A stretch of DNA of 64,000 nucleotides, from contig CP073216.1 of assembly GCA_020342235.1 (NCBI GenBank), forward strand, positions 248,001-312,000. The letters run 5' to 3'. Source of the stretch: Saccharomycopsis phalli (taxonomy: Eukaryota > Ascomycota > Saccharomycetes > Ascoideales > Saccharomycopsidaceae). The notes under the pieces are model-generated. The model was given only the letters and a program-made list of their open reading frames with translations, was not told the origin of the DNA and did no database searches. Every line of letters starts with the position of its first letter. The first letter of the stretch is position 1. Positions 20,111 through 55,800 of the stretch are shown here, one piece after another. The position numbers were made by a program, and so were the translations under genes.

Positions 20111-21099
20111 ATGTGTGAGTATCTTTTCTGAAGCAGATGCACTCCTGTGGCCGTCGATGGCGTACGATTTTAGCATTACGATTCAACTAACGTGTAGCTT
20201 TAAATTGGGGAACAGGAAATGTAAACGGGGTCAGCACGTTTGGCAACTTTGGCAACTTTGGCAACTTTGGCCAACCGAAGTTGAGCGACTCCAAGAATAA
20301 TAATGATACAATGAATAATAGAACCGACGAGGCTAACTTAGAGGTTGGACGGGCCCCAGATGGCCAAAGCCAGCCCTATCCAACAATGCCAGGTACCCTT
20401 GGTGGTGCAAATGTGAATGCCCCGCCCGGACTAAATCCTGCCGCAAAGCCAGTGAATAGCGACATGGCGCCGGGCATTGATCCCCAGCTTCCAGGACTGC
20501 AGGGGAACATGGGCAGTCCAGCTGGGTTTGTAGACAGTCAGCCAAATGCTGGCGAGCCGCAACTAACTGAAATCGAAAGATACGGGCTCCGGGGCTTGGT
20601 GCCGCTTCTAACCATGCCCAATAACGAGATAACCAAAGTTGCCATTGGTAGTGACTTGACCATGGCAGGAATGGGACTTGAAAAGGCCTCGGGTAATGAT
20701 CAGTTGTTGAGGCACTTCCAATCACCGTGGTTAGAAACGTCGATAAAAGACGTGGAACCAGCGTACCAATTACCAGAGTCTGTGCAGCAGATGAACCAGG
20801 AGAAGTACAAGTACTTACAACCGGCGGAAAACAGGTTTAGCAACTACTCGGAAGACACGTTGTTCTTCCTCTTCTACTCCAAGCCCAAGGATATCTTGCA
20901 AGAAATATCTGCGCGTGAGTTGCGCGAAAGAAGCTGGAGATTTCACAAGGGCTTGAAAGTGTGGCTAACCAAAGTCACTGAGGTGGAACCAGTTCAAGAG
21001 ACCCCGTTATCCGAAAGAGGGGTGTATACGTTCTTTGATCCGCAAATCTGGGAGAGAGTAACAAAAGAGTTTGTGTTGGAGTACAGCGCCATCTTGTGA
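20111..21099 (+). CDS. CDC36: CCR4-NOT subunit NOT2, spliced (exons 20111..20114 and 20198..21099)
   Basis: The C-terminal ~150 residues form the NOT box (DTLFFLFYSKPKDILQEISA, LRERSWRFHKGLKVWLTK, GVYTFFDPQIWERVTKEFVL) that dimerises with Not5/Not3 on the Not1 scaffold of the deadenylase complex. The large exon lacks an in-frame AUG: its frame is closed by a TAA at 20188 and contains only a later TTG. A donor GTGAGT at 20115, an ACTAAC branch at about 20185-20190 and a TAG acceptor ending at 20197 join a four-base exon (ATG plus T) to the rest, giving MSLNWGTGNVNGVSTFGNFG at the N-terminus. That region carries FGN repeats from a 9-bp tandem (20238-20271) and then a Pro/Gly/Asn-rich linker. 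Confidence 0.85.
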
Positions 21100-21157: not shown

Positions 21158-22096
21158 CTACTTTGAAGCGGTCTTGGCTAATTTCCGCTCGATCTCGAAA
21201 ATCTCCAAGCACGTCTCGTTAATTGTGTCCCAGTCCTGCTCAATTTCCTGGTCCAAAGGTGCCCGTCCAACGTAAACTTCACCCCGTCCATACAAAACAT
21301 TCAATGCCTTCTTGACCCCAATTGGGCCACGTTGAGAGATGCATTCGCCGATTGTTGCGTACCGCTGATACTTGGCTGCATCAGCGTAGTTGCCTTGGCT
21401 AACAAGATTAAAAATATGCACGTAAATGTGGGGGAAGACGTTGGCCACTGCTCCAATGACACCCTTGGCACCCAAAGTCAACCCAGAAAAGAGGAGCTGT
21501 CCCATTCCCGAGATCCCAACGAAATTGTTTTTCAGGATATCCTCGTCAAGACAGATGGTGGTGTAGAATGGAATGTTTCCGTGCGTCATTTTGATCCCCA
21601 CAATATTGGCATGGCTTGACAACCGCTTGACCGTAGCCTCGTCAAGCCAAACACCATTGGAAATTTGCGGATACTGGTAGAGGATAACCGGTAGCGGCGA
21701 CTTGTCTGCTACTTCCTTGAGCCAGTTGTAAAGCCCCTCAGGCTTTTGGAGAGGCCCATAAAAGTTGCTAGGTACAACTAATGTGTAGTCTGCCCCCGCA
21801 TTTTTCTGGCCGCGGATCTCGTCAAGAGTATCTGCAAGGCAATTTTGAGCAACCCCAGCAATTATAGTTGTCTCCGGAAAATGATCCCGGTAAACCTTAA
21901 TTTCCTCGATTCTCTCCAGCCGTGTTAAACTAGTGTTTTCGCCCAAGGACCCATTAACAACCAAGCCTGTAATTCCAGACTCAATCACAAACTTGGCCTG
22001 TTCAATACAGGCGTCCCAGTCTATAGTGTAATTGTCCTTCTTGTAGAAAGTTGGTAACGGCGTATATATGCCTGCTTTAGGTGGTAGAATCGTCAT
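21158..22096 (-). CDS. dihydrodipicolinate synthase-family aldolase
   Basis: A 312-residue class I aldolase of the DHDPS/N-acetylneuraminate lyase fold. The Schiff-base lysine is seen in NIVGIKMTHG, the catalytic tyrosine in PVILYQYPQIS, and the substrate carboxylate loop in VNGSLGENTSL. Fungi do not make lysine through this enzyme; fungal members cleave 2-keto-3-deoxy sugar acids (LGA1 of galacturonate breakdown) or 4-hydroxy-2-oxoglutarate-type compounds. The exact substrate cannot be read from the sequence. Its promoter carries a palindromic CGG-N11-CCG, suggesting induction by a Zn2Cys6 activator. A MFS transporter gene lies two genes away. Confidence 0.85.
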   Translation of the reverse strand: MTILPPKAGIYTPLPTFYKKDNYTIDWDACIEQAKFVIESGITGLVVNGSLGENTSLTRLERIEEIKVYRDHFPETTIIAGVAQNCLADTLDEIRGQKNAGADYTLVVPSNFYGPLQKPEGLYNWLKEVADKSPLPVILYQYPQISNGVWLDEATVKRLSSHANIVGIKMTHGNIPFYTTICLDEDILKNNFVGISGMGQLLFSGLTLGAKGVIGAVANVFPHIYVHIFNLVSQGNYADAAKYQRYATIGECISQRGPIGVKKALNVLYGRGEVYVGRAPLDQEIEQDWDTINETCLEIFEIERKLAKTASK

Positions 22097-28839: not shown

Positions 28840-29694
28840 ATGGAAAAGGTTATGGATTTTTATTATTCGACGCCGCGTCTTACCAGAGTTTTAATGATAA
28901 TGACTATTTTAGGACATTTGGTTGGTCGCAGCTACTATTCACTATATGACACAGTCACCAATCCAAGCCAAGTATATCGTTGGGTTGTTAGATTCTTTCT
29001 CCCTGATCTAATGAGTCCCGCCCTAAGCTTACTCTATGATCTTTATAATTTGTATATTGTATCAACGAATTTGGAAATCAGAAAATTCAACCTATTGGCT
29101 GATTACTTTTACTATTTTATCATTGTGTGTCCGATAATGCTCTATATCAACCACATGTTCACAATATTTGATCTTCCGTGGCTCTCTCATGCGATGATTG
29201 AGTGCTTGATGTTTACTAATTCTCGGCTAATGAAAGGCACACAGGCGCAGTTTTTGTTCTTCAGATACCAATCAGAGTACCAGCCTCTTTTTTCCTTGGT
29301 AAGTGGCCTTCTCAGTTTCAATATTAACAGTACATTATTGGGAATTGTATGCGGCTACTTGTACTGTTGTTTGGAAAATAAGGACCTTGGACCATTGGCA
29401 TTTCAATTACGTGCCGTGATGAGTTGGAAGACTGGCTTGTATGCAGAATACAACGATAGTGGGTATATTCCTGCGCCAGCTTCAGTAAAATGGCTAGTTA
29501 ATTTTTTTCAAACTCTGGTTGGATCAGTTAATCAGAGCCTGGGTCCCAACGAGGGAAGACGTCTTGGGACTGTTAATGATAACGACAGTAAGAAATCCTA
29601 CATGTACACTAGACAACAGCAGGATAACAAAGCCAGTACGAGCGGGTACTCAAGCACGAGGTTTCCAGGCAAGGGTACTAAATTAGGTAGCTAA
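28840..29694 (+). CDS. derlin-family ER membrane protein (Der1/Dfm1-like)
   Basis: A 284-residue multi-pass membrane protein with the derlin N-terminus: a short amphipathic start, YYSTPRLTRVLMIMTIL, then PSQVYRWVVRFFLPDLMSPA (the W-R-x-x-T-x-F-F-like region) and YIVSTNLEIRKFN. Several hydrophobic helices follow and then a charged cytosolic tail. Derlins are rhomboid pseudoproteases that thin the ER membrane for retrotranslocation of misfolded proteins in ERAD. The long Ser/Lys/Gly-rich tail is more like Dfm1 than Der1, but no clear SHP box (F-x-G-x-G-x-x-L) was found beyond FPGKGTKLGS at the end, which is close to one. Which paralogue it is remains open. Confidence 0.75.
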   Translation: MEKVMDFYYSTPRLTRVLMIMTILGHLVGRSYYSLYDTVTNPSQVYRWVVRFFLPDLMSPALSLLYDLYNLYIVSTNLEIRKFNLLADYFYYFIIVCPIMLYINHMFTIFDLPWLSHAMIECLMFTNSRLMKGTQAQFLFFRYQSEYQPLFSLVSGLLSFNINSTLLGIVCGYLYCCLENKDLGPLAFQLRAVMSWKTGLYAEYNDSGYIPAPASVKWLVNFFQTLVGSVNQSLGPNEGRRLGTVNDNDSKKSYMYTRQQQDNKASTSGYSSTRFPGKGTKLGS

Positions 29695-31200: not shown

Positions 31201-32793
31201 TTACCAACCAGGCCTTATAATAGGATCATTTGAATCTGGTCTGACTGGTTCCGGTTCTGTTTCAATCGGTGGTTCGCAATCCCAGCTTCGGGAGACACTT
31301 ACGGTAAATGGATTTCTTTCCAAGTTATACTCATTGTGTGCTATTGCGTAGCTGCATTTAATTCCCCTTGAGCCTCTTACATTAACCTTTGTTCCTAGTG
31401 TTTGAAGCTGGCTCTTTATCGGTTGGCTCTGCCATCGGCTCTGTCTTGGCAATGACATGAGATATGCAGTAAGACCAGACACATAAGATGTGGAATAGGA
31501 TGTGCCGGAAACTTCATAATACAGTAAGAGGGAACCGTCTGGGTATGGTAAAGTGAATCCTTCGCCAGGAGCATAAATTGTAACATGTGAACCCCGAAAA
31601 GAAAATGGAGCAATGGCTCGACTTTCATCGACTGATCCTACCACTATTGCTGAGTTAGAACTGCTAAAGTCATACAGGAGAGCATTATGACTTCCGGTTT
31701 TTTCATTTCCAGCTGAAATGACAAATTGAACTGTTTCATCATTTATGTCATTTTTGGTATCGTCAATAAATTTCAGCATGTAATGCTTCTCCCTCGGTTT
31801 TGGTATATCCCCTCCCATGCTCAAATTAATCACAATACCATTCTTATATTGCGCTTTATTAGCATAATAGTCATCAATCGCCCAGTCAATCATATCCATA
31901 ATGACCTCATACTTCAATGTTCCGCAACTCACTAATACCACCTGGGTGTTGGGGGCCACTCCAAAAGTTTTATGGGCAGCTAATTCTGCTGAAAGGAGTC
32001 CATGCCTAAAATCAAGTTTATTATCATATGAAGCATCAGCAAATACTCCATGGGTTCGTACTTCCTTCAGAAATCCCTTGTACCATTCCTGATACACACC
32101 TTTTCGAGGATAAGTATCCAAAATATAAATTGCTGTACCTTCACCAGCTTGACTAGAATAAGTGTACTCATAGGAGTGAGTTCTTGCCATTTCGTTGGCT
32201 TGTTGTATAGTTGACGAAAGGTCAGCCAAATGCCAATAGTTTGTATCTTTGAATGCTTGCTGTCGCTTTTCAACTAGTGCTTGATCATTAGACAGGACCT
32301 TTGTGATACTTTCACTCTGCACTATTTCAATAGCTGTGGAATCCTGGAATATCACATCGATTTGTGGATTCTTTACCATAGTATTTAACACCAGGTTAAA
32401 GTAATATCCCCCAAAAGCCACGCCTCTAGAACTGGAGTATGTCTTTCCACCATATCCTGTTGCAGTATTTTTTTTGAAATAGGCAATGATTTTAGGATCG
32501 GTTATTTTACGAAATGCAACCTTTTGGTCTTCTTCCGCAGCGGCAGTTATACGACTAATTTCTTCCTTACTAGTTCCTGATTTTAAAAAGACAATAAACG
32601 AATAAGGTACGGCAAACTCTGGGCTTTCCAATTGAATTTTTGGTCCCACGGCAACGTTTGTGTTATCAACTGCCTTTTTGCTATTCTCCTCTGAGGAAAC
32701 ACCTCCTAGAATTGTTGATTTTGAAGTGCCCTCGGGCAAGAGTAGAGAGAACGCATAAACAAGAAAGCAAAACAGAATTAGAAAAATTCTCAT
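31201..32793 (-). CDS. secreted or vacuolar subtilisin-like serine protease (S8), divergent
   Basis: Begins with a signal peptide (MRIFLILFCFLVYAFSLLL). An I9-type propeptide follows (PYSFIVFLKSGTSKEEISRI), then a subtilase domain with catalytic Asp in IYILDTYP, His in DFRHGLLSAEL, oxyanion Asn in VISAGNEKTG and Ser in SGTSYSTSYVSG. All four positions are present, so activity is possible, but the motifs are unusual: DTY instead of DTG, HGL instead of HGT, and the TP-H of the Ser motif is replaced. This resembles the divergent Rrt12/Ysp3 branch of yeast proteinase K-like proteases rather than Prb1. The tail after the domain is Pro/Glu-rich. Confidence 0.82.
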   Translation of the reverse strand: MRIFLILFCFLVYAFSLLLPEGTSKSTILGGVSSEENSKKAVDNTNVAVGPKIQLESPEFAVPYSFIVFLKSGTSKEEISRITAAAEEDQKVAFRKITDPKIIAYFKKNTATGYGGKTYSSSRGVAFGGYYFNLVLNTMVKNPQIDVIFQDSTAIEIVQSESITKVLSNDQALVEKRQQAFKDTNYWHLADLSSTIQQANEMARTHSYEYTYSSQAGEGTAIYILDTYPRKGVYQEWYKGFLKEVRTHGVFADASYDNKLDFRHGLLSAELAAHKTFGVAPNTQVVLVSCGTLKYEVIMDMIDWAIDDYYANKAQYKNGIVINLSMGGDIPKPREKHYMLKFIDDTKNDINDETVQFVISAGNEKTGSHNALLYDFSSSNSAIVVGSVDESRAIAPFSFRGSHVTIYAPGEGFTLPYPDGSLLLYYEVSGTSYSTSYVSGLTAYLMSLPRQSRWQSQPIKSQLQTLGTKVNVRGSRGIKCSYAIAHNEYNLERNPFTVSVSRSWDCEPPIETEPEPVRPDSNDPIIRPGW

Positions 32794-33252: not shown

Positions 33253-33417
33253 AGGTTCGGAGCACAGAACTATCAGTAGCTACTATAACAATTATACATT
33301 GTTCCAATCGATACCGTAATATACATTCTGTATATAAAATCCTGAACTCAATTACTTGGAGGCAGTAAAGCCCTTTTATAAGGTATTATAGGTAGGGTAA
33401 TACTGCTCCATCCGGTT

Positions 33418-33446
33418 GTAACCACATCATCAATAATCGTGGTTAC
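33418..33446. repeat. inverted repeat GTAACCAC-N13-GTGGTTAC
   Basis: Perfect 8-bp arms around 13 bp. The left arm resembles the TGTAACCA end of the solo LTR 200 bp downstream, so it could be a remnant of a similar element, or a dimeric protein-binding site. Confidence 0.5.
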
Positions 33447-33626
33447 GAGACCAAGAACTCTGATAGGATAAGTACATTTCACTAATGTACGTCAGCATGA
33501 GAATGGATTATGTAACATTATGAAATGTAGCCGGGGCGCCCATTGGGTACATGATGGTCTCTAATTAAGACTGAATATTTTGAGCTAAAGGGATCGTTAA
33601 TAATTCTTTACAGGGTCCCAATTACC

Positions 33627-33913
33627 TGTAACCAGGAAGGTACACTTCCCTGGTTAGGAGAAATGACACAGCGGTTAGAGACCCTGGTTGTATATATGCA
33701 CGTGACGGGAGGAAGCCCGGGTTATATGTACACGTGAGAGGAATGAAGCCCTGGTAAGGGGTGAGTATAAATATACAAAGGGTGGCGTGAAGGAGGTCAC
33801 GCAAGGTTACGGTCATAATATTGTAAGCTTTCATATACGTGAATAAGGAATCATAGACGCCTTATTCAGCATAACCAGCATTCCCCGAAGTAGATCGGAT
33901 CTAACTGGTTATA
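33627..33913 (+). mobile_element. solo LTR of an LTR retrotransposon (fossil)
   Basis: A 287-bp sequence that begins TGTAACCAG and ends with its near inverse (CTGGTTATA). It is flanked by a short direct repeat: TTACC at 33622-33626 and again at 33914-33918, as expected for a 5-bp target duplication. Inside are three degenerate ~33-bp tandem units, two with CACGTG, followed by TATAAATATA (about 33766-33775), so the plus strand is the sense strand. No gag or pol sequence is present in the window, so this is a solo LTR; it looks fairly recent because the ends and the target duplication are still recognisable. The family (Ty1/copia or Ty3/gypsy) cannot be fixed from an LTR alone. It ends 11 bp before a Pol III-type element. 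Confidence 0.7.
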
Positions 33914-34247
33914 TTACCAGTAGGGGCAGGAGCATGGTCGAATTGGAGCACGTTCCATCCACGACAGAAACGGGGAACGTCCGAGGTTCGACTCCCTCTG
34001 CTGCCCCCCTTTGGTTAGCCGGCCGGGCAGGTACTTCTGTAATGGAGGGAGACCCCATAGGCGTCCAGAGTCAAACCATGAAAGACCACACTTAAGACCT
34101 CGTTGGAAGTTTTTCTGCCCATTTGAAGGGTTTTCTTTCAACACTCAACATAGCGGCGCTGCTCATAGTTCAAGCAGTGAAATATCAATCTCTTCGGAGC
34201 CTAGTATAGCTATAGACCACAAATAAATAATAATAATTACCAGTAGG
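33913..34247 (+). mobile_element. SINE-like retroposon with tRNA-like head, A/T-rich tail and 12-bp target duplications
   Basis: ATTACCAGTAGG occurs perfectly at 33913-33924 and 34236-34247, enclosing 311 bp. The insert starts with a tRNA-like region (about 33923-34006): a box A-like TGGTCGAATTGG (33935-33946), a perfect box B GGTTCGACTCC (33985-33995) 50 bp later, a 7-bp stem ACGTTCC/GGAACGT where the anticodon arm should be, and a partly paired acceptor (GGGGCAG with CTGCCCC). A ~210-bp region unrelated to tRNA follows, and the insert ends in AAATAAATAATAATA directly before the second repeat. This is the structure left by LINE-type target-primed retroposition of a Pol III RNA. A TTTTT at about 34111-34115 could stop Pol III early. 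A 5'-truncated LINE end is the main alternative. Confidence 0.7.
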
Positions 34248-34901
34248 TAGTGTACCAGAGGTTATTCCACTTTACAATAATCAACTTGTATTAGAATAGT
34301 ATAATGTCAACTTCATCTCAAACCTGGAAGTCTGCAGAATATTAAATTTAAAGAATATGGTACGGTACGTTAAATCGTTCATTTCACTAAAACCACACTG
34401 ACGCCACTTTAACTTACACATGAAGTGCCAATTCATGGAATTATTTAGGTGCTATGCCATACACGGTAATATTACGACTATGGATGATTGAATACGTTTT
34501 ATACTGGATTTGATTTAAGGAACTACCTACATATTCTCTTATTCAATACAAAAGAAACAAAAATATCCTATTATAGGTTGTTTAATTTACGTCATCCATG
34601 TTTGGCAATTCTAAAATTCAAATTTTAAAATTGCGATAACTCAATAAGATTATGAATGCAACATGATCAGTTCAGCATAGTTAGCAATTTAATAATCTAT
34701 CCATCTCATTTAATGATATAGGCAACTAGTAGGCGTGGATGGTGTGGTACTATTTATCAACTCTACTGTAATATAGTAACTAAGAATTACATCTACATCA
34801 ATCCAATTATTTCATTTATTAATCTCGACACTTCGCACAACAAGCAGTGGAACAGGAAAAAATACAAACAGAAATCATAATAAGTCATTTTAACAAGTCC
34901 A
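34248..34901. other. right part of gene desert
   Basis: About 650 bp of A/T-rich sequence between the SINE-like element and the YAP1 stop. Apart from the near-palindrome at 34605-34634 nothing recognisable was seen. Confidence 0.5.
34605..34634. repeat. 30-bp near-perfect A/T palindrome
   Basis: The sequence from GCAATT to AATTGC reads almost the same on both strands (two mismatched pairs plus the centre). It could form a cruciform or bind a dimer. No link to a gene is evident. Confidence 0.55.
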
Positions 34902-36365
34902 TCAAAGCCCCAATGATGAATCTAGAATTTTGTCAAGCTCATCCTTGTGTACAACCACCCCTTTATCCGAACACTTTGCCTTCGTCCTCAATTCTGTACA
35001 CAAACCCTCAATATCCAATTCGGAGTATTTAGGGTGTGACGTCACTCTATCCCATATTTGAGAACATTTAATCAAGTCATTTTGATTGTTTGGAACCACC
35101 TCTGGGTCAAAAAAATTGTTTTTTGATGCGGGCTTCTCAGAATTCCCAAATAAATCAATTGGGGAACTGTTATTGATATATTTTGAAATAGAGTGTTCCG
35201 TAGTAGTAGACTTTGACGACATGTCACCAGCCGGCGACAACGACGGCACTGTGCTGCCGCCTACCTGTGAGTCCGCCACTAGCCCAATCTCAAATGAATC
35301 ATAAGCAGAATGTTCAGAAGTCAAAGCACTAATTGGATCGAACTCGCTACTCACACCCAATTGGTCACTAGTCCCATCAAGTCCCTCAAACAACTGTGAT
35401 TCCACAGATGTGTCTCTATAGGAATTTGCGTTTGGGCCCTTTAAAAAATCCAAGTCATCTAAAAGCTTGTTGGACAGGTCAAAATTAAAGACCAAATTCT
35501 GATCATAGGGACTGTCAGCATTGAAAAGCGTAAGGAAATCATGGTTGGTTTCTTCACTACTTTCCTGCTTCACAGGTCCATTAGTCAAGTCTAACGAAAA
35601 ATCTTTAGCAGTAGTAGGCTTCTTAGGAACCGGATTCTCTTTATTGCCACAGGCTGACCCCAATTCATTGCAGAACGACTTCTCATTAAAGTCCTTGTCG
35701 AAATTATAATCAATAACAGAGCCCTTTGATTGGCTACTATTAATCGATATGCTGGGGCGCATATTAGTATTTCCATGATCTGAAGGGGATTCCGATGAAG
35801 ACAACAAATCCGAGCCCGGCGAAAGAGAGTTCTCCCCCTTGTACGAATTTGAGCTTTCACTGTAGCAAACACTGCTCTTCTCGGCGTTTTTCAAATTACT
35901 CCATGGAAATTCTAAGTTATAACGACCCTTGATATTCCCATTGTTGTCTGGAAGGCTCTTTTTACTACTTGCGCTAGTCTCCGTGCTAAGCTTTCTGCGT
36001 GCTTCCTCCTTGTACTTATTTAACTGTAAAGAGCCAACATTAAATTCTGATCCCCTGAATTTGTTCAACTCAGAACTCAACATTTCAACTTGCATTCGTA
36101 GGAAGTCACTCTCAGTATCCGCAGCCCTCTTCTCCTCCTCGAGCTCTTTGACCTTCTCTTCAAGCTCCTCCATTCTTTTTTGCTTTCTTTCTCGGAATGC
36201 TCGCTGGGCCGCCCGGTTTTGAGCAGTTCTTTTATTTTTTGGCTCCGAGTTTATGGGCTTACGACCAGGTCTGGAGGCCTTCTCCTTCTTCTCCATTTCT
36301 TGGCGCTTTGTCTCAACAGGCTGAATTTGGCTGAGATTTCTTTTAGCGGCAGAAGAGTCGAACAT
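34902..36365 (-). CDS. CAP1: AP-1-type bZIP oxidative-stress regulator
   Basis: Yap1/Cap1 family. The basic region NRAAQRAFRER (residues 50-60) has the Q and F/R residues that define fungal Yap factors, followed by a leucine zipper (LEEKVKELEEEKRAADTESD). A central cysteine-rich element (SFCNELGSACGNKE) and a C-terminal one (CSQIWDRVTSHP, then EGLCTELRTKAKCSDKG) supply the redox-active cysteines and the embedded Crm1 export signal. Peroxide-induced disulfides between the two hide the export signal and hold the protein in the nucleus. The 487 residues match C. albicans Cap1 (about 499). A Yap1 response element lies 128 bp upstream, suggesting autoregulation. Confidence 0.95.
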   Translation of the reverse strand: MFDSSAAKRNLSQIQPVETKRQEMEKKEKASRPGRKPINSEPKNKRTAQNRAAQRAFRERKQKRMEELEEKVKELEEEKRAADTESDFLRMQVEMLSSELNKFRGSEFNVGSLQLNKYKEEARRKLSTETSASSKKSLPDNNGNIKGRYNLEFPWSNLKNAEKSSVCYSESSNSYKGENSLSPGSDLLSSSESPSDHGNTNMRPSISINSSQSKGSVIDYNFDKDFNEKSFCNELGSACGNKENPVPKKPTTAKDFSLDLTNGPVKQESSEETNHDFLTLFNADSPYDQNLVFNFDLSNKLLDDLDFLKGPNANSYRDTSVESQLFEGLDGTSDQLGVSSEFDPISALTSEHSAYDSFEIGLVADSQVGGSTVPSLSPAGDMSSKSTTTEHSISKYINNSSPIDLFGNSEKPASKNNFFDPEVVPNNQNDLIKCSQIWDRVTSHPKYSELDIEGLCTELRTKAKCSDKGVVVHKDELDKILDSSLGL

Positions 36366-45038: not shown

Positions 45039-45232
45039 GCCACCACCATTTTATATTATTACTAGCCGGTAGTGGTGGTATGCTTATACAGGTATCTGCA
45101 TATAGCGGGGCATTCATATACCTATTACCCTATTAATCTAAGTATGTTGTGCATGAAGCGGGGTATAAACGTTCCCATAGCTTACAAATCATACATGGGT
45201 CAGTGAAATCCAAGGTGGTATAGATTTCACAA

Positions 45233-45339
45233 TTTCAAGGACGATACTATTTCAAGATTACACTGTTTCAAGATTATACTATTCCAAGATTATACAAGAT
45301 TATACTATTCCAAGATTATACAAGACTATACAATTCCAA
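45233..45339. repeat. minisatellite overlapping the 3' end of MSW1
   Basis: Five to six head-to-tail copies of a 16-bp unit like TTTCAAGATTATACTA, two of them lengthened to 26 bp by repeating CAAGATTATA. The right end runs into the last codons and stop of MSW1 (stop 45326-45328), where TTCCAATAG in the plus strand encodes the terminal Ile-Gly-Ile. The array may therefore have grown from the 3' end of the gene. Confidence 0.75.
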
Positions 45340-46498
45340 TAGATTTCTTAACTTCCCTCATAGTCTGCACAGCAATCTCTCTAGCCTTGAGGTTTCCATC
45401 ATCCATGACTTTCTGTAAGTACGCAGGATCTTTCATTAACTCATCAAACTGATTTCGAACAGGTGATAGCCGTGAAATAATAGTATCACATACAAAGTCC
45501 TTGAGCTGCTTGTGGTCTTTAAGCGTCGACACCTGCTCAACAGTCTCATCTATAGTAGTATCATTTAAGCCACTGACAATATTTATCAAATTAGACACGC
45601 CTGGCCGGTTCACTGGATCAAAATTGAACTCGCCAGTTATAGAGTCAGTAACTGCTCTTTTCACTTTACGAGTGATTGTATCTGGATCGTCGGTTATGTA
45701 GATGCATGAACTCTGATCCGCATCAGACTTGGACATTTTCTTGCTTGGGTCCCTCAAGGACAAAATCTTCTTAGTAGGGGCTAAAATGGTCTTTGGAACC
45801 GGAAATCTAAACGTGTCTGATCCATATGTCGAATTGAAGCTATTGCAAATGTGTCTCGATAATTCCAAATGCTGGGCCTGATCATCTCCAACAGGGACAA
45901 GAGTCGACTTGTATAGTAAAATATCAGCTGCCTGTAACACTGGATACATGAAAACTCCGCTATTAGTCTTTTTTAATGCGTCTGGGTCCAAAATGGAGAC
46001 TTGCTTGGACACACCACTCTTGGACTTCCACTGTGTCATTCTATTCAAATAGCCCATTCCTGTTAGACAGCAAAGAATCCAAAACAATTCAGAATGTTCG
46101 GGAATCGTTGCCTGACTAAATAAAATCGCCTTTGAAGGCAGAATGCCCGAGGCAATTATACTGGCTATTGCTTCTCTCCGAGCTAGTTTGAACTTAACCG
46201 GATCCTTTGGGGTTGTGAGAGCATGAAGATCTGCTAGCCCAAACAAAAGTCTCGAGTCTGACAGCAGTATTTGCGGACTGTTGGAAAAGTCTCTCCATAC
46301 TTTTATTGTACCTAGATAGTTGCCAATGTGAAATCTATTTGTTGGCTGTACTAACGAAAATATCGTGGATTCGCTCGGGATTTGAATATTCGCCTTATAA
46401 TCGATTGTTTCGACGGTGGAAATTCTTCGAACTGTGTTGTATATTTTTCCGCAAAGTGACGTGTTGCGTAATCTGACCATTTGTGATTGGTGCCACAT
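45326..46498 (-). CDS. MSW1: mitochondrial tryptophanyl-tRNA synthetase
   Basis: Class Ic synthetase charging mitochondrial tRNA-Trp. The HIGH-equivalent is RFHIGNYLGTIKVW, and the KMSKS loop is SKKMSKSDADQSS. TGMGYLNRMTQWKSK, VLQAADILLYKSTLVPVGDD and QHLELSRHICNSFN are bacterial-type TrpRS signatures. The N-terminus (MWHQSQMVRLRNTSLCGKI, then YNTVRRIST) suits mitochondrial import. The 390 residues match the family. The last four codons overlap a minisatellite. Confidence 0.95.
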   Translation of the reverse strand: MWHQSQMVRLRNTSLCGKIYNTVRRISTVETIDYKANIQIPSESTIFSLVQPTNRFHIGNYLGTIKVWRDFSNSPQILLSDSRLLFGLADLHALTTPKDPVKFKLARREAIASIIASGILPSKAILFSQATIPEHSELFWILCCLTGMGYLNRMTQWKSKSGVSKQVSILDPDALKKTNSGVFMYPVLQAADILLYKSTLVPVGDDQAQHLELSRHICNSFNSTYGSDTFRFPVPKTILAPTKKILSLRDPSKKMSKSDADQSSCIYITDDPDTITRKVKRAVTDSITGEFNFDPVNRPGVSNLINIVSGLNDTTIDETVEQVSTLKDHKQLKDFVCDTIISRLSPVRNQFDELMKDPAYLQKVMDDGNLKAREIAVQTMREVKKSIGIV

Positions 46499-49537: not shown

Positions 49538-50866
49538 ATGTCGACGTTGGAAGAACTTGACGCTTTGGAGCAAACTGCTGGGCAAGCGGCTTCAAATGAG
49601 CCAGCTGCCGTTGACGAGGACGAGGAAGTGATGAGGGAAATCATGACTGGGTCGACCAGTGACATCAAGAATAGAACTCGATTGTTGGAGAACCAGATTC
49701 GAGTAATGCGGTCGGACATGCAACGATTGCGGCACGAGAAGACGAACAAGGTGGACAAGATCAAGGAGAACAAGGAGAAGATTGAGAATAATAAGCAATT
49801 GCCGTATTTGGTCGGTACAGTAGTGGAGCTTTTAGACGTGGAAGCCGAGCAAGAGGCTACAGAGGAAGGCGCGAACATTGACTTGGATTCGACCCGGGTT
49901 GGCAAGTCTGCTGTCATCCGCACGTCTACTAGACAGACTGTGTTTTTGCCGTTGATTGGGTTGGTTGAGCCGGAGGAGTTGAAGCCAGGCGACATCATTG
50001 GGGTGAACAAGGACTCTTATTTGATCTTGGACAAGCTCCCCGCCGAGTATGACTCGCGGGTGAAGGCCATGGAGGTCGACGAGAAGCCGTCGGAGACGTA
50101 TGCTGACATTGGAGGGTTGGAGAAGCAGATTGAGGAGTTGATTGAGGCGGTGGTGTTGCCGATGCAGCAGGCGGACAAGTTTACCAAGTTGGGGATCAAG
50201 CCGCCAAAGGGCGCGTTGATGTACGGTCCGCCAGGCACGGGTAAGACGTTGCTTGCACGTGCGTGTGCTGCGAAGACGAATGCGACGTTTTTGAAGTTGG
50301 CGGCGCCGCAGTTGGTGCAGATGTTTATTGGCGACGGCGCGAAGTTGGTGCGGGATGCGTTTGAGTTGGCGAAGGAGAAGGCGCCGACTATTATATTTAT
50401 CGACGAGTTGGATGCCATTGGCACCAAGCGATTTGACTCGGACAAGAGTGGGGACCGTGAGGTTCAGAGAACCATGTTGGAGTTGTTGAACCAGTTGGAT
50501 GGGTTTGGGTCGGACGACCGGGTGAAGGTGTTGGCGGCGACGAACCGTGTCGATGTGCTTGACCCTGCGTTGTTGCGGTCCGGCCGATTGGACCGAAAGA
50601 TTGAGTTCCCGTTGCCGACCGAGGAAGGACGGGCCCAGATCTTGCAGATACATGCCCGGAAGATGAAGTGCAACGACGACATCAACTGGCAGGAGTTGGC
50701 GCGGTCTACGGATGAATTTAACGGGGCACAGTTGAAGGCCGTAGCCGTTGAGGCCGGCATGATTGCTTTACGCGGGTCGCAGAATACTATAAAGCATGAG
50801 GATTTTGTCGAGGCCATTGGCGAGGTGCAAGCTAGAAAGTCAAAGAGTGTATCGTTCTATGCATGA
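49538..50866 (+). CDS. RPT5: 26S proteasome regulatory ATPase RPT5
   Basis: AAA ATPase of the 19S base. It begins [12 protein letters not shown], then a coiled coil ([20 protein letters not shown]), an OB domain, and the AAA module with Walker A GPPGTGKT, Walker [12 protein letters not shown] and the arginine-finger region [12 protein letters not shown]. The C-terminal SFYA is the HbYX-type tail that docks into the 20S alpha ring. The full 442-residue form starts at 49538; the open frame upstream is not conserved. The last codons are copied into a downstream minisatellite. Confidence 0.97.
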
Positions 50867-51174
50867 TTAGTCAAGCAAGTCAGTGTATAGTTCTATCCAT
50901 AACCAAGTCAGAGTGTATCGTTCTATCCATAACATCAAGAGTGTATATTTCTATCCATGATTAATCCAAGAGTGTATCGTTCTATCCATAACCAAGCAAG
51001 AGTGTATCGTTCTATCCATAACCAAGTCAGTGTATAGTTCTGTCCATAACCAAGTCAGTGTATAGTTCTATCCATAACCACATCAAGCGTGTTTCGTTCT
51101 ATCCATGATTAATCCAAGAGTGTATCGTTCTATCCATAACATCAAGAGTGTTTCGTTCTATCCATAACATCAAG
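50847..51174. repeat. 30-bp minisatellite seeded from the RPT5 3' end
   Basis: Eleven head-to-tail units of 28-36 bp with core GTGTATCGTTCTATCCAT start at about 50847, 50883, 50913, 50941, 50972, 51002, 51030, 51058, 51089, 51120 and 51148. The first unit lies inside RPT5 and encodes VSFYA plus the stop; later units carry a C for the coding G and often lose the stop. The array fills the whole 320-bp spacer to the convergent PRP17 stop. Confidence 0.9.
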
Positions 51175-52852: not shown

Positions 52853-55800
52853 ATGGTGGAGAAGAAGCCTTACTTGAAGTATAGGTATGAAAAGAATCAA
52901 CACAAGACATTCAAAGAACCCCGTTCTCTCATTCCGTCGCATATCATTGACACGGGGTCCCAGAAAGCATATTTCACTGCAATCTTCTTGTTGATCCAAG
53001 CATTCAAGATCCAGCAGTGTCTAATACTAAAGTCGCATGGCAATAATGGGCTAAACAATGGCTTGGACTATGACTTGTTTATTTTCATTGTCAAGTTCTT
53101 TGTCATTGACTCCGGCTTCTTGTGGCTTCTTCCAGTGTTTCGAGTCCCTGGCTTGACATTCAACCCTTTTGTCATCTTCCTACAGTCAATAACCATAACC
53201 GGGTTTACCATTCTCTTGTCATGCAATTTGCACATGTTTTTCGCCTCGATATTCTCATCGGTTTTGCAGCTGGTACATATTTCTAGCCACTCGAAACAAG
53301 CAATCAGCCGTGAGATGGCCAGTTCCAGTCCCGGTGTGCAGGTCTTGGGTTCGAATCCAGACAGTTTGAAGGACGACTTGCACTTCAAGGGCCAGAAGGT
53401 TATCAATATTGTGCCTAAGTCCACGTCCTTTTTCAATCCTTTTCATGACCAATACTGCTTGGACCTGGCATCGAGTCAAATGACAGTACCGGTAAAGTTC
53501 AATTCATCCAACGAGGTATCCTACATTGAGATATTGAACATTGATTACAATAACAAGACTACCGTGCTCAAATTCAAAAAGGACAAATTGAACAAAATGA
53601 GAGTATCAGAGAAAAGCAAGGCAAACTATCTACGCAAGGACTTGATATTGAATGGGAAAAACAACTTCATTGACAACGACATTGAGGAGACTCTTGCCAA
53701 TATCGATGCTTCTAGAATATCATTTCTTGAGGTGCCAATCGAGAAGCCAGGTCTCTACAAGATTCACAAAGCAATTGATACAAAGAACTTGCCGATTAAG
53801 GTCTACGGGTCTAGTCTAATCATTTCTGCTTGTCCAACCGCTCAAATCAAGAATAACGCTCCTGACGTTGCTCATAACTGTATTGGAGACAGAAGTAAAA
53901 TCAAAATCTCTGTCCGGGGTGTTCCGCCATTGAGAGTCAAGTATACAAAGTATGTAAATGAAATTTCCGAAACACTCGAGTCAAACTTGTTATTGCCTGA
54001 TACTGCTATTAATTCGCCATTGATTTCACAGGCAACACTATTGGATACCAAGTCTGAGAACCGTTTCTCTCTCAATGAGTTGCTACGCAATTTGGACCGA
54101 TCAACTATAGATAAATTCACCACCTGGGCCGACTCATACGATATTGATATAAACCTTGATAGTATGATGAAAGCTCCAGGAGACTTTTCATACAAGTTGG
54201 AAGAAGTCGAGGATGGTTTTGGCAATATAATCAACTTGTCAAGAATTCACGAGCAGAATTACCGGTTCAAGCACCAGAATAAATATGAAACTTTGGAAGA
54301 TTATTTGAAATCACAGCATCTATACCTGAGTTACACAGTTTATGAGTCTCCAAAATTAAAATTGGTCGATAAACTCTCCAATAAGCCGCTTATGGAGGGA
54401 CAGACAAGACATTTGAAGTTGATTATTAATGAAAATGAGCACAATGAAATTCAGAACCAAAGATTACTTGAAAAGTTCCAGCCTATCCTTGCCACGATTT
54501 CATTTGTCAGTGAATCTGGTAAGAAGCTGTCAAGTGAATTTGAGTTCAACTCCAAGAATGATTTCAAATTTATTGCAAAGGACCCCGGATCTTATAATTT
54601 GGAATCCGTGATTGTAAGCCAGTGCCCAGGAGTAATTGATGATTCTAACAACAAAATAGACATTTACCAGGCTTTCAAGCCACTGATGTCTATTATCTCC
54701 AACTCTTCCATAACTGACAAGTGTTTAGGGCAAATTGGGCTCAACTTCGATTTGTTATTCAGCGGCCTTCCACCGTTTGAAATTAAGGCATTAAGCTTCA
54801 AGGTCGAAAATGGTAAAAGGAATCTAATTGATACAAAAAGAATAAGAGTACCTCTATCAAATCGATTTCAATATGACTATGAGCCAAAGGGAGAAGGCAG
54901 CTATGAGATCCAGTTTCATTCTTTAAAGGACAGTGTATACACAAACTTTATTGAACTTACTCCAAGTGACAATTACAAGTTTTCTACTACATTGCGAGCT
55001 AAACCAGGGGCACATTTCTTAGATGTCTCAGATAGTAGAGAAACAGTTGTTAAGAAGCTTTGCTTGGGATCCGAGTCGGAGATTCTACCTGTCAAATTAT
55101 CGGGAGATGCTCCATATGAAATTACTTATGAAATAATGGAGAAAAAGACCAAACGGAGAAAGGCTTACAACTCAAAGGCCATTACTGGCAGCTTGTACGA
55201 CTTGAAACTTCCAATATTTCAAACAGGTGGAACATACATTGTTGACTTGACGTCAGTGAAAGATAAATCGGGATGCGTGGTTGTGTTAAAGGATCAAAAA
55301 ATGTCTATAGATGTTCTTCAGCAATTGCCAACTGCTGAATTTGAGGATTCTCCTGATAGTCAAATGACTACTGTGAATGGTCAAAAGATTAATCAAATCA
55401 GCATAAAAGAAGGATCCAGTGCTAAGATACCAGTAAAGTTGGTGGGGGAGAAGAATGTGCATGTGAACTACAAAGTTATTGACAATGAGGGAAATGTTAT
55501 TCGTGACTCATACATGAGCTCCTTTACAAATCACCACAACAAGCCAAAGTTTAATGGTTACATTTATGCAGAAACTGCGGGAACCTACTACTTGACGGGA
55601 GTAAAGGATAGTTATTGCATGGGGAAGATTAATGACTTTGTTCCATATAATGTTAGCTACTTTCCAAAGCCTCAAATAATAATTAAAGAAGGCCCCACAA
55701 TAACAAAGATTAAACCGAATGCCTTTCAAAAAGACGGATTATGCTTGAATGAAGAATTGAATACTATTGATTTAGAATTTAAAGGGAAGGCCCCATTCCT

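Follow-up and report, generated by a model that had tools for sequence, protein, structure and literature searches.

The window analysed in this work, by which we mean the whole stretch of 64,000 bases, has a G+C content of 42.1% and contains no N. Two of its genes, both on the minus strand, frame the locus of interest: a subtilase-like gene at 31201-32793 (Peptidase_S8, 75.5 bits), which reads away from the element described below, and a bZIP/PAP1 gene at 34902-36365, which reads towards it. The subtilase-like protein is divergent and has, by eye, a signal-like start. Pfam scans covered 29 of the 36 open reading frames of at least 150 amino acids and returned ordinary yeast families or, for five frames, none; the seven frames outside the scan overlap other genes. 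Among the proteins recognised in this way are a NOT2/3/5 protein at 20311 and a Der1-like protein at 28840. At 21158-22096 the window encodes a DHDPS-family protein, in a yeast, and this family is best known from bacteria. There are also two arrays of short repeats. A minisatellite at 50843-51174 (ten copies of units of about 28 bp, 80% matches, core TTCTATCCATAAC) overlaps the end of the RPT5 frame and fills the gap to a PRP17-like gene, and tandem repeats of 16 and 26 bp at 45222-45339 run from the 3' end of a Trp/Tyr-type tRNA-synthetase gene (45326-46498, minus strand) into the adjoining gap.

The genetic code of the host was judged from the 25 open reading frames taken as genes, where CTG makes up 61 of the 1,342 codons that the standard code assigns to leucine. 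Pfam scores with CTG read as leucine or as serine were compared for ten proteins, one of which had no match at all. On the change from leucine to serine the scores rose for DHDPS (124 to 126.8), Aldedh (600.2 to 602.2), UbiA (169.7 to 169.9), tRNA-synt_1b (201.9 to 204.2), zf-Nse (65.5 to 67.5), Peptidase_S8 (75.5 to 77.5), Ig_Pom152 (159.4 to 161.4) and Ig-like_Pom152_1 (75 to 78.5), and Ig-like_POM152 went down from 133.1 to 132.6. In two WD40 proteins serine lowered several propeller models, with the largest drop for WD40_WDHD1_1st (114.5 to 95.3); THOC3 went up in the first of these proteins (116.8 to 121.6) and down in the second (70.3 to 68), and the WD40 model went up in both (109.5 to 112.5 and 57.7 to 59.1). 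Alanine, tried for seven of the ten proteins, scored about equal to serine, and the two are not separated. Most of the scores thus gain from a reading of CTG other than leucine, so that leucine is disfavoured and the view of the host as a budding yeast with CTG reassignment is supported.

Between the two genes that frame the locus, perfect 12-bp direct repeats, ATTACCAGTAGG, flank a body of 311 bp, and this 12-mer has no further occurrence on either strand of the 64-kb window. The features of the locus are these:

33904-33921, no strand: imperfect palindrome ACTGGTTAT/ATTACCAGT, eight of nine pairs, with its centre between 33912 and 33913, the left end of the duplicated target
33913-33924, plus strand: left copy of the putative target-site duplication, ATTACCAGTAGG, from sequence and repeat searches
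33923-34007, plus strand: head, a long hairpin GGGGCAG...CTGCCCC, weakly tRNA-like, from folding and from ARAGORN at 80%
33925-34235, plus strand: body of the putative inserted element, 311 bp
33935-33946, plus strand: box A, TGGTCGAATTGG, by match to the consensus
33950-33980, plus strand: 7-bp stem ACGTTCC/GGAACGT closing a 17-nt loop; resembles an anticodon arm enlarged by an insertion of about 10 nt
33985-33995, plus strand: box B, GGTTCGACTCC, a perfect match to the consensus
34008-34220, plus strand: part of the body with no tRNA likeness, Rfam family or excess RNA structure
34110-34114, plus strand: internal TTTTT, a possible weak Pol III terminator
34221-34235, plus strand: A/T-rich 3' tail AAATAAATAATAATA, 15 nt, 0% G+C
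34236-34247, plus strand: right copy of the putative target-site duplication, ATTACCAGTAGG, from sequence and repeat searches

The anatomy proposed in the first-pass annotation, that is a 311-bp insert between perfect 12-bp repeats with a perfect box B and an anticodon-arm-like stem at its left end and an A/T tail at its right end, is borne out in each of these parts; in the stem, 33950-33956 pairs perfectly with 33974-33980 over 7 bp. Box A had been described as box A-like, which understates it: it is present and agrees with the consensus, TRGYNNARNNGG, at all fixed positions. The promoter head abuts the left repeat and the tail directly abuts the right one, and the element ends are GG...TA. 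Its 5' end can be placed only to within about 2 nt, because the left hairpin arm begins with two G (33923-33924) that fall within the direct repeat.

Could such an arrangement arise by chance? In 60 simulations of a 64-kb stretch with the dinucleotide composition of the window, pairs of repeats of at least 12 bases occurred on average 0.12 times at a spacing of 311-335 bp and 2.5 times at a spacing of 100-700 bp. The real window contains 24 at the wider spacing. The minisatellite near 51000 accounts for 18 of these, and the ATTACCAGTAGG pair is one of the remaining six; with six pairs outside the minisatellite against 2.5 expected, the 12-bp repeat is by itself not extreme. A random 12-mer recurs within 350 bp to its right with p = 4.5e-5, or about 3e-4 over seven offsets, and among the real 12-mers of the window 7 of 63,627 do likewise, one being this repeat itself. 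What is extreme, unlike the repeat alone, is the placement of the repeats at both exact ends. As for the promoter boxes, a pair of box A and box B at a spacing of 20-65 bp is found once in the window, both strands included, and in none of 200 order-2 simulations, with box A alone seen 13 times (13.4 expected) and box B alone twice (0.105 expected). The second perfect box B, GGTTCGAATCC at 53348-53358, lies inside a POM152-like reading frame and is without a box A in range. As the features were picked after the sequence had been read, all of these figures are guides and not tests.

More questions concern the origin of the head. The distance from box A to box B is 38 nt, a spacing typical of tRNA genes, and as a match of sequence the presence of a Pol III type-2 promoter in the head is certain. 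The region 33923-34012 folds at -39.2 kcal/mol (z -2.58), which one of 200 shuffles equalled. The best fold is not a cloverleaf but a single long hairpin that pairs the region of box A with that of box B; when the fold is constrained to a cloverleaf with anticodon and T arm, it reaches -30.4 kcal/mol against the -39.2 kcal/mol of the hairpin. A tRNA was found in the head neither by Rfam, down to E 10, nor by ARAGORN at its default or 90% setting. At 80% ARAGORN found a tRNA-like fold in the head and also in 10 of 500 shuffles, and shuffles passed in 92 of 500 cases at 70% and in 139 of 500 at 60%. Among the matches listed by relaxed ARAGORN on 550 bp, the head was called as tRNA-Gly(ccc) with a 10-nt 'intron', but further tRNAs were called beyond its limits or on the opposite strand, and the match in the head is therefore weak. 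The candidate parent anticodons would be CCA, as read by eye, or CCC with the 10-nt intron-like insert, as read by ARAGORN. The first-pass annotation had placed the element among tRNA-derived, LINE-mobilised SINEs. The anatomy gives good support to the retroposition of an RNA that carried its Pol III promoter internally; the origin of the head from a tRNA, with no Rfam or default ARAGORN match, is only weakly supported.

The rest of the body carries few marks of its own. In the region 34010-34235 structure does not exceed that of shuffles (z 0.61; 144 of 200 fold equally well), nor does it over the full length of 311 nt (z 0.12; matched by 49 of 100 shuffles). Rfam gave for the body a single chance-level match, with an E value of 0.96 and under its gathering score, and over the whole window no matches at gathering scores. 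At E values up to 10 there were three matches to other families, all far under their gathering scores, and none for the head alone; the models of RNase P, MRP, SRP, U6 and tRNA gave no match beyond chance at the same limit. An unstructured body with no Rfam family may be compatible with the body of a SINE, unlike RNase P, SRP or another structural RNA. The longest stop-free run in the body is 99 codons, a length reached by 5.75% of 2000 resampled sequences, and the longest open reading frame with an ATG which overlaps the body encodes 53 amino acids; we found no convincing coding frame in the body, which could still encode short peptides. Would Pol III read such an element to its end? In yeasts Pol III terminates efficiently only at about six or more T. 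The runs of at least four T within 33913-34600 are TTTTT at 34110, TTTT at 34131 and TTTT at 34497. Given the need of yeast Pol III for about six T, the TTTTT at 34110 may be leaky. With this run inside the body and no run of at least four T past the element until 34497, Pol III cannot be relied on to make a full-length RNA that stops at the tail. The caution of the first-pass annotation, that the internal TTTTT argues against efficient full-length transcription, stands in a milder form.

When the element and one repeat are removed, the reconstructed empty site reads CTAACTGGTTAT, ATTACCAGTAGG and TAGTG in succession, and the left end of the duplicated target coincides with the centre of the palindrome. 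Palindromes of at least eight of nine pairs occur at 9 of 63,659 centres (1.4e-4) in the window minus the element and one repeat, this site included, and at the other nick of the target the symmetry is one of nine pairs. Nine of the 168 CTGGT motifs of the window lie within 33400-34300, two of them in the repeat copies. The palindrome came to our attention only once the site had been studied, and it lies where CTGGT is frequent. It therefore weighs less than its raw frequency implies, and part of the symmetry of the target may come from this local abundance.

Other observations can be made upstream of the target. The CTGGT motifs frequent in 33600-33930 are perhaps regulatory sites of the subtilase-like gene, and an inverted repeat, TAACCAGGAAGGT/ACTTCCCTGGTTA, is found at 33629-33656. 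We considered an upstream solo LTR at 33651-33880 (TGGTTA...TAACCAGCA, with TG...CA ends) and rejected it, as four such candidates occur in about 1.28 kb, which is the chance level. This LTR-like stretch contains TTCCC repeats and an internal TATAAATA and lies 32 bp upstream of the duplicated target.

Neither blastn nor nhmmer (next best E 4.6) found a second copy of the 311-bp body in the 64-kb window, and the Pfam scans of the 29 window frames gave no reverse transcriptase family. The inference of the first-pass annotation, that a LINE in this genome mobilises a family of Pol III RNAs, therefore stands as a conjecture. In a collection of genome contigs, one stretch, from the bacterial bin L001 (Opitutaceae), contains an exact 21-mer of the head. 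We take this as chance: beyond the 21-mer there are blastn matches of 7-18 bases only and no tRNA, and the neighbourhood reads as bacterial coding DNA. Four exact patterns had no occurrence each in viral contigs, and plasmid and phage collections gave no match at E up to 1; none of the collections searched here is expected to contain yeast DNA, and these outcomes therefore carry little weight.

How does the element compare with known ones? SINEs are common in animals and plants. For the budding yeasts (Saccharomycotina) none was described among the best-ranked matches of a search of mostly open-access literature, nor in the accessible parts of PMC6416283, PMC5911963, PMC5499181 and PMC3248453. 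In filamentous fungi, the accessible part of PMC5063351 describes AfuSINE2 of Aspergillus fumigatus, with a length of 140-493 bp and target duplications of 4-14 bp, and names Foxy and MgSINE as further SINEs. The present element resembles the tRNA-derived SINEs of that account in its 5' Pol III promoter and its body unrelated to tRNA; it differs from them in its CTG-reassigned yeast host, in its one copy in the window and in its weak tRNA likeness. A possible kind of helper is Zorro3, an active LINE of the L1 clade in the CTG yeast Candida albicans, whose genomic copies, according to the available text of PMC3510499, tend to have flanking poly(A) tracts and to enter them. Insertion into poly(A), as expected of an event driven by Zorro3, is not what we see here: the target, ACTGGTTATATTACCAGTAGG, is no poly(A) tract, and the tail is a mixture of A and T. 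In a CTG yeast a Zorro3-like helper would come to mind first, but the preference of Zorro3 for poly(A) against the different site found here would call for a different LINE. A further comparison can be made with Yarrowia, which is a different yeast lineage. Ylli is a budding-yeast LINE, of Yarrowia lipolytica, and the authors of the W29 assembly paper raise, as a speculation, a role of LINEs in the dispersal of Pol III genes in this species, but the accessible part of that paper describes no actual SINE (PMC5014426); a survey of 56 Yarrowia strains does not contain 'SINE' or 'SINEs' as a whole word (PMC9865632).

Judged from its sequence, the locus is probably best explained by a single insertion of a SINE-type retroposon or, at the least, of a retroposed Pol III transcript, through target-primed reverse transcription (TPRT) of the LINE type. 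Several of the features by which tRNA-type SINEs are recognised are found here, namely box A and box B at the 5' end, duplications at the exact ends, an A/T tail and no convincing reading frame. Repeat and head adjoin at one end and repeat and tail at the other, an arrangement that no single chance event would produce; the head is more stable than nearly all of its shuffles, the body does not resemble a conserved structural RNA, and the insertion point is the palindrome's centre. Against the SINE reading are the one copy in the window, the lack of a LINE among the scanned frames, the lack of a tRNA match in Rfam and in default ARAGORN, the TTTTT inside the body and the preference of the head for a hairpin over a cloverleaf. 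The same single copy is what one would see if a host Pol III RNA had been moved just once by a LINE, leaving a processed ncRNA pseudogene and no self-amplifying family. An internal promoter and TPRT-like ends would look identical in that case, and this is the main rival, although an unlikely one, since no parent ncRNA is visible for a body with neither an Rfam match above chance nor excess structure. Could the locus instead be a resident ncRNA gene, read by Pol III from an A/B-box leader as are yeast RNase P RNA and snR52, with 12-bp repeats at its flanks through chance alone? The good A and B boxes at a tRNA-like spacing would fit, and chance-type repeats do occur, as the six pairs outside the minisatellite against 2.5 expected illustrate. 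However, 12-bp repeats placed exactly at the two ends have a chance of about 3e-4, the Rfam models of RNase P, MRP, SRP and other RNAs stayed at chance level, and the body is unstructured and has no strong terminator; we regard such a gene as quite unlikely.

Flanking duplications can also arise with no element at all, when a fragment of DNA or RNA is captured in the repair of a staggered double-strand break and the filled-in overhangs become the 12-bp repeats. A palindromic site could be fragile and so favour this, but such capture gives no reason to expect that one end would coincide exactly with a promoter head and the opposite end with an A/T tail, and we hold it to be improbable. The least probable alternative, in our opinion a very remote one, is a solo LTR or terminal-repeat element with an internal tRNA-like sequence, of the Helenus type, or else a DNA transposon or MITE. 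Helenus elements have terminal repeats with tRNA-like LTRs and are reported, in the accessible part of PMC10886601, from fungi, animals and plants, the fungal ones being those of rust fungi and some Agaricomycetes, with duplications of 5 bp in fungi. They share with the present element a tRNA-like promoter sequence within a small non-autonomous element. Unlike them, this element lacks an LTR structure: its duplication is 12 bp, where Helenus and solo LTRs have 4-5 bp, its ends are not TG...CA, and among the repeats listed for 33400-34500 there is no inverted pair formed by the ends of the body.

If the element is a SINE-type retroposon, Pol III would read it from its 5' end, and the reverse transcriptase/endonuclease of a LINE located elsewhere in the genome would act in trans and bind the 3' tail of the RNA. 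The enzyme would then nick the bottom strand at the centre of the ACTGGTTAT/ATTACCAGT palindrome and copy the RNA from the 3' end so formed; the top strand would be cut 12 bp away, and repair would double these 12 bp. Because it carries its own promoter, the element copy could in turn serve as a new source. With its repeats still perfect and its boxes intact, the insertion seems to be a recent one. It lies upstream of the subtilase-like gene and downstream of the bZIP gene, and it probably has no host function. A bolder and rather doubtful idea is that this CTG-reassigned yeast harbours a young SINE/LINE pair and that the endonuclease of this pair favours palindromes prone to form cruciforms, which it nicks at their centre of symmetry. 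Were this true, the pair would be the first SINE system known to us in Saccharomycotina, with an unusual rule of target choice, and the palindromic target offers a specific and cheap prediction for other copies.

What would the finding mean? Family status and the partner LINE decide between a first budding-yeast SINE and a curiosity: if the body is single-copy, it is merely an odd retrocopy, and if the element is confirmed, it is a known kind of element in a new clade. With a SINE present in a CTG yeast, the partnership of SINEs and LINEs would reach the budding yeasts, some of which carry LINEs, and a compact genome would become available in which to study Pol III transcription of SINEs, their recognition by the LINE enzyme and the choice of target.
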